From positions 5,245,057 to 5,309,056 of the forward strand of contig NZ_KB913029.1 in the NCBI RefSeq assembly GCF_000384115.1: 64,000 bases of DNA. Reading direction: 5' to 3'. The position numbers and the translations under genes were made by a program. Source of the DNA: Sporichthya polymorpha DSM 43042. GTDB taxonomy: Bacteria > Actinomycetota > Actinomycetes > Sporichthyales > Sporichthyaceae. Positions 3,213 through 45,247 of this stretch are shown here, piece after piece. Below the pieces are notes generated by a model, which was given only the letters and a program-made list of their open reading frames with translations, was not told where the DNA came from and searched no databases. Position 1 is the first letter of the stretch. Each line of letters starts with the position of its first letter.

Positions 3213-4507
3213 GAGGCCACCGCCTTCTGCGCCGCGGCGAGCGCCTGGTCGAGGTCCCACAGGATGTCGTCGACGTCCTCGAGCCCGACGCTGATGCGCA
3301 CCAGGTCGCCCGGCACGCCCGCCGCCGCCAGCTGATCCTCCGTCAGCTGACGATGGGTGGTGCTGCCCGGGTGGATGACGAGCGTTCGGACGTCGCCGAT
3401 GTTCGCCAGGTGCGAGGCGAGCCGGACGTTCTCGATGAACGCCTCCCCCGCCGCGCGGCCGCCGACGACGCCGAACGAGAACACCGCGCCCGGCCCCTCC
3501 GGCAGGTAACGCTGTGCCCGCTCGTGGTGGGGGTGCGAGGGCAGCCCCGCGTAGCGGACGTAGGACACCCGCGGGTCCGCCTCCAGCCACGCGGCGACGG
3601 CCGCGGCGTTCGCGACGTGCGCGGACATCCGCTGCGGCAGCGTCTCGATCCCCTGCAGCAGCAGGAACGCCGCCATCGGCGTCAGCGCCGGGCCGATGTC
3701 GCGCAACTGCTCGGAACGGACCTGGGTCAGCCAGCCGTAGATGCCGAAGTTCCCGGCCCAGGTCAGGCCGCCGTAGCTCGGGATCGGCTCGGTCATGCGC
3801 GGGAAGCGGCCGTTGGCCCAGTCGAAGCGCCCGGACTCCACGAGAACGCCCCCGAGCGTGGTGCCGTGCCCGCCCAGGAACTTCGTGGCCGAGTGGATGA
3901 CGATGTCCGCGCCGTGCTCGATCGGCCGGCACAGGTACGGCGTCGCCATCGTGGCGTCGACGATCAGCGGCACCCCGGCGGCGTGGGCCACCTCGGCCAG
4001 GCCCGCGAGGTCCGCGACCTCACCGGATGGGTTCGACACCACCTCGACGAACAGGCCCTTGGTCGCGTCGGTGATCGCCGCCGCGTAGTCGGCCGGGTCG
4101 GTGCCCCGCACGAAGACCGTGTCGACGCCGAAGCGGCGCAGCGTCACGTCGAGCTGCGTCAGCGTCCCGCCGTACAGCGACCCGGCGGCGACGAGCTGGT
4201 CACCGGCGCCGGCGAGCGCGGCGAACGTCAGGAACTCGGCGGCCTGGCCGCTGGCGGTCGCGATCGCGCCGAGCCCGCCCTCGAGGGAGGCCATCCGCTC
4301 CTCGAGCGAGGCGACGGTCGGGTTGGCGATGCGGGAGTAGATGTTCCCGTACTTCTGCAGCGCGAACAGGCTGCCGGCGTCCGCGGTGTCGGAGAAGACG
4401 AAGCTCGCCGTCTGGTAGATCGGCACTGCCCGGGCGCCGGTGTGCGGGTCGGGCTGGGCGCCGGAGTGGATGGCACGGGTGCGGAAACCCCAGTCACGTT
4501 CGGCCAT
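3209..4507 (-). CDS. O-acetylhomoserine sulfhydrylase-type PLP enzyme (first copy)
   Basis: A 432-residue Cys/Met-metabolism PLP enzyme of the MetY type, expected to make homocysteine from O-acetylhomoserine and sulfide. The PLP lysine is in SATKFLGGHG (about residue 208) and the phosphate-binding TASGQAAEF loop is present, as is YSRIANPT near the N-terminus. It differs from its paralogue at 5745-7037 in the cofactor-contact stretch (VDATMATPYL against VDNTIPSPYL), so the two may differ in acyl or sulfur donor. It sits 37 bases downstream of metX and is coupled to the CoA-binding gene. The MetY class is firm; the substrate is inferred. Confidence 0.88.
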   Translation of the reverse strand: MAERDWGFRTRAIHSGAQPDPHTGARAVPIYQTASFVFSDTADAGSLFALQKYGNIYSRIANPTVASLEERMASLEGGLGAIATASGQAAEFLTFAALAGAGDQLVAAGSLYGGTLTQLDVTLRRFGVDTVFVRGTDPADYAAAITDATKGLFVEVVSNPSGEVADLAGLAEVAHAAGVPLIVDATMATPYLCRPIEHGADIVIHSATKFLGGHGTTLGGVLVESGRFDWANGRFPRMTEPIPSYGGLTWAGNFGIYGWLTQVRSEQLRDIGPALTPMAAFLLLQGIETLPQRMSAHVANAAAVAAWLEADPRVSYVRYAGLPSHPHHERAQRYLPEGPGAVFSFGVVGGRAAGEAFIENVRLASHLANIGDVRTLVIHPGSTTHRQLTEDQLAAAGVPGDLVRISVGLEDVDDILWDLDQALAAAQKAVAS

Positions 4508-7142: not shown

Positions 7143-8429
<1,287 letters not shown>

Positions 8430-9334: not shown

Positions 9335-9966
9335 GCGGTCCCTCCGGCCCCGGTGACGTCCCGGGCGCTGCTCACGACGTGGTCGACGAAGCCGTACTCC
9401 TTGGCCTGCTCCGCGGTGAACCAGCGGTCGCGGTCGGAGTCCTTCTCGATCTGCTCCAGCGTCTGGCCGGTGTGCTCGGCGATCTGCTGGGCCAGACGCT
9501 TCTTGGTGTAGAGCATCTGCTCGGCCTGGATCTTGATGTCCGAGGCGGTACCGCCGAGGCCGCCCAGCGGCTGGTGCATCATGATCCGCGCGTTGGGCAG
9601 CGCGTAGCGCTTGCCGGGGGCGCCGGCGCAGAGCAGGAACTGCCCCATGGAGGCGGCGAGACCCATCGCCACGGTGCCGACGTCGGGCTTGACGTACTGC
9701 ATCGTGTCGTAGATCGCCATGCCGGCCGAGACCGAGCCGCCAGGGCTGTTGATGTACAGCCAGATCTCCTTCTCGGGGTCCTCGGCCGCGAGCAACAGCA
9801 TCTGCGCGCAGAGCGCGTTCGCCATGTCGTCACGGACCTCGGAACCGAGGAAGATGATGCGCTCGCGGAGCAGGCGCTCGTAGACGCGCTCCCCCAGGCC
9901 GCCACCGTTCTCGGCGCCGCGGGCCATCTCGAGCCGGGTCAATCCATATCCGTCGGATGTGGGCAC
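9331..9966 (-). CDS. clpP1: ATP-dependent Clp protease proteolytic subunit ClpP1
   Basis: Serine peptidase subunit of 211 residues, partner of ClpP2. Catalytic Ser is in [11 protein letters not shown], His in IMMHQPLGG, and Asp in [17 protein letters not shown]. The [19 protein letters not shown] stretch is typical. It is the first gene of the clpP1-clpP2 pair. A ClgR-like box lies about 110 bases upstream with a TAGGGT -10-like hexamer between box and start, consistent with ClgR activation known for actinobacterial clpP operons. Confidence 0.96.
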
Positions 9967-39813: not shown

Positions 39814-40818
39814 ATGGCGATCGCAATCGGGTACAAGGCGTCGGCGGAGCAGTTCGGGCCGCGGGAACTGGTCGAGTTCGGCGTGGCGGCGGAGCGGTAC
39901 GGCTTCAACTCGGCCGTCGTGTCCGACCACTACCAGCCGTGGCGGCACAACGGCGGGCACGCGCCGTTCTCGCTGGCGTGGATGACCGCCGTCGGTGAGC
40001 GGACCGAGCGCATCACCTTGGGTACGTCGGTGCTCACCGCGACGTTCCGCTACAACCCCGCGGTGATCGCGCAGGCCTTCGCGACCATGGCCTGCCTCTA
40101 CCCGGGTCGGGTCATGCTCGGCCTGGGGACCGGTGAGGCGCTGAACGAGATCGCGGTCTCCGGCATGGAGTGGCCGGAGTTCAAGGAACGCTTCGCCCGC
40201 ATGCGCGAGGCCATCGACCTGATGCGCCGGCTGTGGACCGAGGATTCCGTCGACCACTCCGGCGAGTACTACACCACCGTCGGGGCGACGGTGTACGACA
40301 AGCCGGAGCAGCCGATCCCGATCTACGTCGCCGCGGGCGGCCCGGTCGTGGCCCGCTACGCCGGCCGCGCCGGGGACGGGTTCATCTGCACCTCCGGCAA
40401 GGGCATGGCCCTCTACCAGGAGGAACTCGTCCCCGCACTGCACGAGGGCCTGGAGAAGGCCGGCCGGTCGATGGACTCCCTCGACCGCATGATCGAGGTC
40501 AAGCTCTCCTACGACCATGACGCCGAGTTCGCCCTCAACGCGACCCGCTTCTGGGCGCCGCTGTCGCTGACCGCCGAGCAGAAGCACTCGGTCTCCAGCT
40601 CCCAGGAGATGGAGCGCCTCGCCGACGAGCTGCCCATCGAGCAGGTCGCGAAGCGCTGGATCGTCGCCTCCACCCCCGACGAGGCCGTCGAGGGCATCCG
40701 CCCCTACATCGAGGCGGGCTTCACCAACCTCGTCATCCACTTCCCCGGCGCCGACCAGGTCCGCTTCATGGAGCAGTTCTCCGCCGACGTCATGCCCCGC
40801 CTCCGCGAGCTCGGCTAG
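39814..40818 (+). CDS. fgd: F420-dependent glucose-6-phosphate dehydrogenase
   Basis: A 334-residue luciferase-like TIM-barrel enzyme that oxidises glucose-6-phosphate and reduces coenzyme F420, the main source of reduced F420 in actinomycetes. It is closely similar in recall to mycobacterial FGD1: [16 protein letters not shown] at the start, [17 protein letters not shown] holding the Asp/His/Trp of the active site, [10 protein letters not shown], and FICTSGKG with the phosphate-binding Lys. The C-terminal [19 protein letters not shown] and [11 protein letters not shown] are also conserved. A perfect palindrome begins two bases after its stop. Confidence 0.96.
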
Positions 40819-40819
40819 C

Positions 40820-40877
40820 TGTGAAAAAAGGGTGACACCCCTTACTGCGCAGTAAGGGGTGTCACCCTTTTTTCACA
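40820..40877. repeat. 58-bp perfect palindrome, copy 1 (bidirectional terminator-like)
   Basis: Two 29-base arms with no spacer. The arm reads TGTGAAAAAA, GGGTGACACCCC, TTACTGC. It contains A-runs on the left and T-runs on the right, so both strands would give a hairpin followed by a U-tract. The inner 46 bases (40826-40871) recur unchanged in copy 2 at 45192-45247. It lies between the ends of convergent fgd and the truncated panE frame, whose stop codon lies inside it. Confidence 0.92.
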
Positions 40878-41277
40878 ACTGCGCTGCCGCGGCGCGGGCG
40901 GAGGGCTCGAGGACGGCGTGGACGGTCCGGGTGACGGCCGCGACACGCTCGGCGGGGGCGACGCCGCCGTTCTGCAACGAAACGACGAAGCCGTCCGGCC
41001 CCAGCAGCGACTTCAGCGCCGGCAGTGCCCCGTCGATCGCGTACGCCTTCACCGCCAGCAGGACGACGTCGTGAGCGCCGAGCTCACCCGGGTCGTCGCT
41101 CGCGCGCACTCTCGACAGGTGCAGGTTCCCGCGCGGGCTGTGGATCTCGATGCCGTTCGTCCGCAGCGCCGTCAGCTGCGCGCCGCGGACGAGAAAGCCG
41201 ACATCGTGCCCCGCCGCGGCCAGCCGCGCACCGAAGTAGCCGCCGACGCCGCCGGCGCCCACGACTCCGATGCGCAT
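40873..41277 (-). pseudogene. Truncated ketopantoate reductase (panE-like) N-terminal fragment
   Basis: Only the first 134 codons of an approximately 300-residue 2-dehydropantoate 2-reductase remain. The Rossmann motif GVVGAGGVGGYFGARLAAAG, FLVRG, VLLAVKAY and VSLQNGGV are intact, but the catalytic C-terminal domain is missing. The frame is interrupted exactly at the right edge of palindrome copy 1, which supplies the TGA stop. It belongs to a leftward run with rpiB and the Rv2466c-like gene. Catalysis is not expected. Confidence 0.85.
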
Positions 41278-41300: not shown

Positions 41301-41807
41301 TCACGTCAGGAGTTCGGGGTGCGCGCTCTCGGCCTCCTCGCCGGGGAGCGGCGGAAGCTCGTGCGTCTTCTCGTAGTCGGCGAGCATGCCGATGCGGCGG
41401 TTGTGCCGTTCCTCGTCGCTGTAGGGGGTGTCGAGGAAGACCTCGAGGAAACGGGCGGCCTCCTCGAGCGTGTGCATGCGCGCACCGATGCTGATGACGT
41501 TGGCGTTGTTGTGCTGCCGAGCGAGCGAGGCGATCTCCTCGCTCCAGACCAGCGCGGCCCGGATGCCCGGGACCTTGTTCGCCGCCATCTGCTCGCCGTT
41601 GCCCGATCCGCCGAGGACGACGCCGAAGCTGCCCGGGTCCTGCGCGGTGCGGGCCGCGGCGGCCAGGCAGAACGGCGGGTAGTCGTCCTGGGCGTCGTAG
41701 ATCGTCGGGCCGCAGTCCACCGGCTCGTGCCCGGTCTCCTCCAACCACCGCAGCAGGTGGTCCTTGAGCTCGAAGCCGGCGTGGTCGGACCCCAGGTAGA
41801 CGCGCAT
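41301..41807 (-). CDS. rpiB: Ribose-5-phosphate isomerase B
   Basis: A 168-residue enzyme interconverting ribose-5-phosphate and ribulose-5-phosphate in the pentose phosphate pathway. Signatures are VYLGSDHAGFELKDHL at the start and VVLGGSGNGEQMAANKVPGIRAAL in the middle, plus HNNANVISIGARMH. It lacks the catalytic Cys of E. coli RpiB (Gly-Ser-Gly-Asn here), as in mycobacterial RpiB. It precedes panE' and follows the Rv2466c-like gene. Confidence 0.95.
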   Translation of the reverse strand: MRVYLGSDHAGFELKDHLLRWLEETGHEPVDCGPTIYDAQDDYPPFCLAAAARTAQDPGSFGVVLGGSGNGEQMAANKVPGIRAALVWSEEIASLARQHNNANVISIGARMHTLEEAARFLEVFLDTPYSDEERHNRRIGMLADYEKTHELPPLPGEEAESAHPELLT

Positions 41808-45191: not shown

Positions 45192-45247
45192 GTCAGAAAA
45201 GGGTGACACCCCTTACTGCGCAGTAAGGGGTGTCACCCTTTTCTGAC
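45192..45247. repeat. 56-bp perfect palindrome, copy 2 (bidirectional terminator-like)
   Basis: Two 28-base arms without spacer: GTCAGAAAA, GGGTGACACCCC, TTACTGC and the reverse complement. The core from AAAA to TTTT (46 bases) is identical to copy 1; only the outermost 4-6 bases of each arm differ. It lies 8 bases after the pepN stop, between convergent genes, and would terminate transcription from both sides. Confidence 0.92.

Follow-up and report, generated by a model that had tools for sequence, protein, structure and literature searches.

Rho-independent terminators that act in both directions are described between convergent genes (PMC1852404 and PMC1590033, in the portions of text available). 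The uptake signals of Neisseria and Pasteurellaceae are given, in the available part of PMC1852404, as approximately 9-11 nt long and generally present in at least 1,000 copies. For the loss of panE, the available text of PMC4353338 states that the ketol-acid reductoisomerase of Corynebacterium glutamicum compensates for the absent gene (Merkamm et al. 2003, cited therein), and a paper cited in the same source reports that the ketopantoate reductase activity of this organism is encoded by ilvC alone. In the 64,000-nucleotide stretch of Sporichthya polymorpha DSM 43042 DNA analysed here (the window), a shortened panE-like gene lies next to a long palindrome. In its full form, panE encodes ketopantoate reductase, which takes part in the synthesis of vitamin B5. 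We consider it very likely that this is a recently broken panE-like gene adjoining one ordinary representative of a family of bidirectional terminators that is specific to its lineage.

The panE remnant is located on the minus strand at 40873-41277. In brief, codons 1-114, from the N-terminal ApbA domain, are joined in frame to the final 20 codons of the gene, giving 134 codons followed by TGA. The stop codon, read as TCA on the plus strand at 40873-40875, lies inside a perfect palindrome and two bases from its boundary; both the 134-codon frame and the position of its stop are as the initial annotation had described them. The rpiB-type ribose-5-phosphate isomerase gene upstream of panE on the same strand (41301-41807, minus) is intact and scores 218 bits against TIGR02133 (cut-off 168.2). 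Convergent with the remnant is fgd (39814-40818, plus), encoding an F420-dependent glucose-6-phosphate dehydrogenase of 334 aa (NCBIfam TIGR03554, 573 bits, cut-off 420). Between the two lies the palindrome, perfect over 58 bp at 40820-40877 with arms of 29 and 29 nt, and extending to 40817-40880 with one mismatch. It is a probable bidirectional intrinsic terminator common to fgd and panE, and its central 38 bp (40830-40867) form the core of a dispersed family, defined here by at most three mismatches.

A protein search with the 134-aa product against 60 genomes, its own and 59 relatives, gave matches in 37 of them. The best two outside its own genome come from the same genus, G002 with 91% identity over residues 1-117 and G001 with 75% over residues 1-120, and both sit in frames of more than 300 aa. 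No match listed outside its own genome lies in an open frame shorter than 267 aa, and the full-length panE frames of G001, G002, G003 and G004 measure 315, 310, 311 and 311 aa, respectively. Among the homologues listed we found neither a short frame lacking the palindrome nor a family of stand-alone 134-aa domains.

The corresponding locus of G002 (L036) is arranged like the window, with fgd and a 310-aa panE convergent and the palindrome (about 7369-7426) between them. The DNA identity between the two is 91-93% on either side of the break in panE, and the alignment is interrupted only once, where window positions 40935-40937 join L036 positions 7510 and 8036. Codons 1-114 of the window gene correspond to codons 1-114 of G002, and codons 115-134 to codons 291-310. 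The latter (40876-40935, minus) encode the native C-terminal tail, which has been kept: the window reads VTRTVHAVLEPSARAAAAQL and G002 reads VTRTVYAVLEPFARAAAAPA, and the G001 tail, also aligned, begins VTRTVLAVLEPSARAA. At the junction (40935-40936), 528 bp of the G002 gene are absent from the window, equal to 176 codons (115-290) and thus exactly in frame. Judged against G002, the ends of the deletion share approximately 3 bp of microhomology (CCG). The stretch between tail and core is a further 24 bp shorter in the window than in G002, giving a total shift of 552 (528 + 24). Because of this shorter spacer the window frame uses the TGA on the A-tract side of the palindrome, and the stop of G002 is unused. 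As read from the alignment, the window panE is a gene with an in-frame internal deletion of 528 bp and a retained tail.

The initial annotation proposed a deletion that the palindrome had accompanied or set off, with one end at the palindrome edge; panE would thereby have lost its C-terminal half, and fgd would have come to lie beside the fragment. The first part of this stands in so far as a deletion took the C-terminal domain, as the full frames of the four relatives support, and the missing half is indeed not found between the palindrome and fgd; codons 115-290 of PanE are not encoded anywhere in the window. Palindromes can promote deletions, the stop codon does sit in the palindrome, and the 24-bp spacer difference lies at its edge. 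We nevertheless regard this origin of the deletion as extremely unlikely. The gene is not cut off exactly at the palindrome: homology to PanE runs to codon 114 and is followed by the native tail, with the break internal, and the junction lies 58 bp short of the perfect palindrome, the tail being in between. The palindrome also stands beside an intact panE in G002, and fgd neighbours panE with or without it. In G001, fgd and the 315-aa panE are convergent and 48 bp apart with no palindrome between them, and in G003 and G004 the two genes are adjacent but divergent. Since G002 carries both beside an intact panE, the palindrome and the fgd neighbour predate the deletion.

A gene end inside the palindrome is not peculiar to panE, as five gene ends in the 49 copies examined in this genome lie at most 8 nt from the core edge (according to our own gene calls). 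Changes in spacer length are likewise the rule at palindrome copies. They were found on 46 of the 54 sides of 27 copies paired with their G002 counterparts, and in 18 of the 54 by at least 20 bp, the panE side being among these 18. The breakpoints themselves gave no sign of the palindrome as an indirect promoter of the deletion.

The deletion is known from one genome of the species, which leaves room for an assembly error or for a deletion that arose solely in the cultured strain. We consider this unlikely: the assembly consists of a single contig with 99.49% completeness, the join is clean and keeps the reading frame, and the genes around it, all intact, are collinear with those of G002.

The deletion takes away the final part of the N-terminal Rossmann domain together with all of the ApbA_C domain. 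In the window protein, PF02558 (ApbA) scores 97.4 bits, over profile positions 1-113 of 150 only, and TIGR00745 scores 94 bits, under its cut-off of 141.35; the G002 orthologue reaches 234.6 bits against TIGR00745 and matches both ApbA and ApbA_C in Pfam. The catalytic lysine and glutamate, as we place them from the Escherichia coli enzyme, would presumably fall in the missing codons 115-290. ApbA_C (PF08546) has no match in the window protein and none in the whole of its genome. In a search of six genomes, G004 not among them, PF08546 gave one match each in G001, G002 and G003, always at the panE next to fgd. To judge from these profile searches, the genome has lost its only detected ApbA_C.

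The initial annotation had raised the matter of another panE in the genome, and none was found. PF02558 gives four further matches, the best with 28 bits, but with no PF08546 match these are probably other Rossmann enzymes. The genome encodes one panB, one panC and one ilvC above cut-off. The same three genes are present in G006, a member of the same class, likewise with no ApbA_C. The genome of C. glutamicum, used as a control, does match PF08546. Since activity from ilvC alone is nonetheless reported for that organism, possession of ApbA_C does not imply that a protein acts as ketopantoate reductase in vivo. In some actinobacteria, IlvC is able to reduce ketopantoate. It is plausible from this gene content that IlvC stands in for PanE, and the loss of panE may be tolerated either in this way or through uptake of pantothenate.

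With G001 as the outgroup, codons 1-113 show four non-synonymous and seven synonymous changes on the window branch and the same numbers, four and seven, on the G002 branch, with 14 changes unresolved. Between the window and G002, dN/dS is 0.123 for these codons, as compared to 0.072 for fgd, 0.063 for rpiB and 0.090 for pepN; panE has the highest value of the four genes against G001 too. The deletion looks recent, since codons 1-113 show no excess of decay. A recent deletion and continued constraint on the fragment would each account for this, and the counts are too low to tell them apart.

The latter would fit a 134-aa protein maintained as a mini-domain, the nucleotide-binding half having acquired a new role. 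The fusion is in frame, the glycine-rich dinucleotide-binding stretch is intact, and codons 1-113 carry no excess of non-synonymous change. Random deletions, however, are in frame one third of the time, and a recent deletion accounts for the absent decay. The Rossmann domain is moreover incomplete (113 of 150 positions), and no stand-alone relative of 134 aa occurs among the homologues listed, so that we judge a maintained mini-domain to be very unlikely. The panE remnant is probably a recent pseudogene with a non-functional product.

The palindrome was folded as RNA within 71 nt, giving -50.5 kcal/mol (z -12.3) on the plus strand and -53.9 kcal/mol (z -11.2) on the minus strand; on either strand, 0 of 200 shuffled sequences folded as well. 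The core is followed by tttttt on both strands, giving a stable hairpin and then a U-tract whichever way it is read. This hairpin probably ends both transcripts, as its predicted structure suggests. It should be noted that a simple terminator scan did not list the palindrome; the scan counts stems of no more than 20 pairs, and here the T-tract is paired with the A-tract. Comparison of the palindrome with known RNA families gave only a miRNA match at chance level, below its gathering score, which was rejected.

We suggest the following course of events. In the common ancestor of the window lineage and G002, a full panE and fgd converged on the palindrome, whose RNA forms a long hairpin with a U-tract from either strand and probably ended both transcripts. 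In the window lineage, a deletion of 528 bp between sites sharing approximately 3 bp, possibly by a microhomology mechanism, then removed codons 115-290 in frame. Through the separate 24-bp spacer difference the stop seen in G002 was lost, leaving the frame to end at the TGA of the terminator stem. The product is most likely a non-functional remnant, tolerated via IlvC, with panB, panC and ilvC kept, or via pantothenate uptake.

The 38-bp core occurs, with at most three mismatches, at 75 sites in the S. polymorpha genome, 37 of them perfect, and at 103 sites in G002. It was found at 0 sites in G001, G003, G004 and 16 further genomes. In an even sample across the phylum, one that does not include G001-G004, the core was present in 1 of 396 genomes, which is the S. 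polymorpha genome itself. The window holds a second copy (45192-45247, core 45201-45238), located between a gene presumably encoding an aminopeptidase-N-like protein and the next convergent gene, and the orthologous place in G002 is also occupied. No published account of this palindrome family was found in the literature searched, including by core sequence, as judged by title.

The gene context was examined for 49 of the 75 copies in the S. polymorpha genome (the first listed, with 0 or 1 mismatch) and for 51 of the 103 in G002, using our own codon-bias gene caller and not a standard one. In the former, 36 of the 49 copies lie between convergent genes and 13 between co-directional genes, with 0 between divergent genes and 0 inside genes. 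The G002 copies are divided into 33 convergent, 15 co-directional and one divergent, with two at the edges of the regions. Against a background of 129 convergent gaps in 792, the binomial p value for the S. polymorpha copies is 1e-18. Most copies are placed 10-60 nt past a stop codon. This placement at gene 3' ends, mostly between convergent genes, together with T-tracts on both strands, is the reason for reading the palindromes as bidirectional intrinsic terminators.

Several further repeats were observed around these palindromes. The motif TTWTNCACA, which we take to be a DnaA-box-like consensus, is scarce in the sequence examined and falls almost entirely within palindrome flanks: in the S. 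polymorpha genome it flanks 14 copies and occurs 17 times in 0.85 Mb, and in G002 it flanks 16 copies and occurs 18 times in 0.77 Mb; examples are found at L073 about 9862-9886 and L115 about 4059-4083. It may merely reflect a T-tract followed by CACA in a GC-rich genome. Within the sequence examined, TTTTCCACAGG is confined to palindrome flanks (7 of 7 occurrences in the S. polymorpha genome and 10 of 10 in G002). A variant palindrome has the same GGGTGACACCC arms and another centre, of the CTTTCTGGCGCCAGAAAG type (L128:9800-9837, L138:14286-14323, L148:9849-9886 and L036:12358-12395), and in G002 some copies of it stand in tandem with the main one. Several intergenic sites in both genomes (L074:15044, L096:1993 and L111:10280 in S. 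polymorpha; L125:18463 and L129:12550 in G002) carry a second palindromic repeat, which contains GAGATGACATCTC or a sequence closely related to it.

Of the 49 copies, 27 could be placed in G002, all 27 on an orthologous copy, and the other 22 were unmapped; the G002 regions were fetched around G002 copies, which favours occupied sites. The reverse comparison, starting from 56 G002 matches with at most eight mismatches, gave 29 occupied and 25 unmapped sites and two with no S. polymorpha counterpart, both of the variant-centre type. The cores of the 27 orthologous pairs show 8 differences in 1026 positions, each of them at loop position 18 or 21, and 0 in the 918 positions outside the central four. 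The flanks 11-40 nt away show 752 differences in 1620 positions, an ungapped count inflated by indels, and the choice of near-perfect copies favours identical cores, which inflates the contrast between core and flank. The small number of stem changes is partly due to the stem having to pair as RNA on both strands. One sequence at dozens of unrelated sites needs a common origin, copying or a sequence reader too. We raise, tentatively and with some doubt, the possibility that the palindrome is a lineage-specific element recognised by its sequence and not by its hairpin alone, perhaps bound by a dedicated protein or held uniform through copying or gene conversion, besides its role in two-way termination.

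The panE finding is ordinary decay of a biosynthetic gene that can probably be done without, and the palindrome family is of more interest. The loss of panE with panB, panC and ilvC kept offers a simple test case for IlvC replacing PanE. The locus also illustrates that a palindrome at a gene end may mimic the cause of a truncation; here, comparison with a close relative indicated that the palindrome came first. Young, near-identical two-way terminators, found in two species of the genus out of three, could reveal how terminators spread and how their uniformity is kept up. If a protein does bind the palindrome, the majority of copies would at the same time serve as marks between convergent operons across the genome.

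Compared with known systems, the window gene resembles PanE/ApbA proteins (PF02558 and PF08546, TIGR00745) in that its first 114 and last 20 codons align with full-length homologues of the same genus. It differs from them in having neither codons 115-290 nor ApbA_C and in falling below the TIGR00745 cut-off. The palindrome shares with bidirectional Rho-independent terminators, as far as the available accounts describe them, a GC-rich hairpin flanked by an A-tract and, opposite it, a T-tract, located some tens of bases downstream of stop codons and mostly between convergent genes. Those terminators are, in the same accounts, heterogeneous in sequence, whereas here a very long perfect stem and a near-identical 38-bp sequence recur at dozens of sites. 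DNA uptake sequences also comprise a repeated, conserved motif that serves as a terminator hairpin (available part of PMC1852404), but the palindrome family has a 38-bp core and 75-103 sites. In the 0.85 Mb examined, made up of regions picked around copies, the 11-nt arms were counted 107 times. With 75 sites, as against the approximately 1,000 or more copies expected of an uptake sequence, this candidate was rejected. The REP-like families, such as the Bor, Ype and Efa elements (PMC1590033, in the part available), are likewise species-limited, intergenic stem-loop repeats at gene 3' ends. The palindrome family is of a known kind, that of 3'-end repeat families and of terminators made from a repeated motif.
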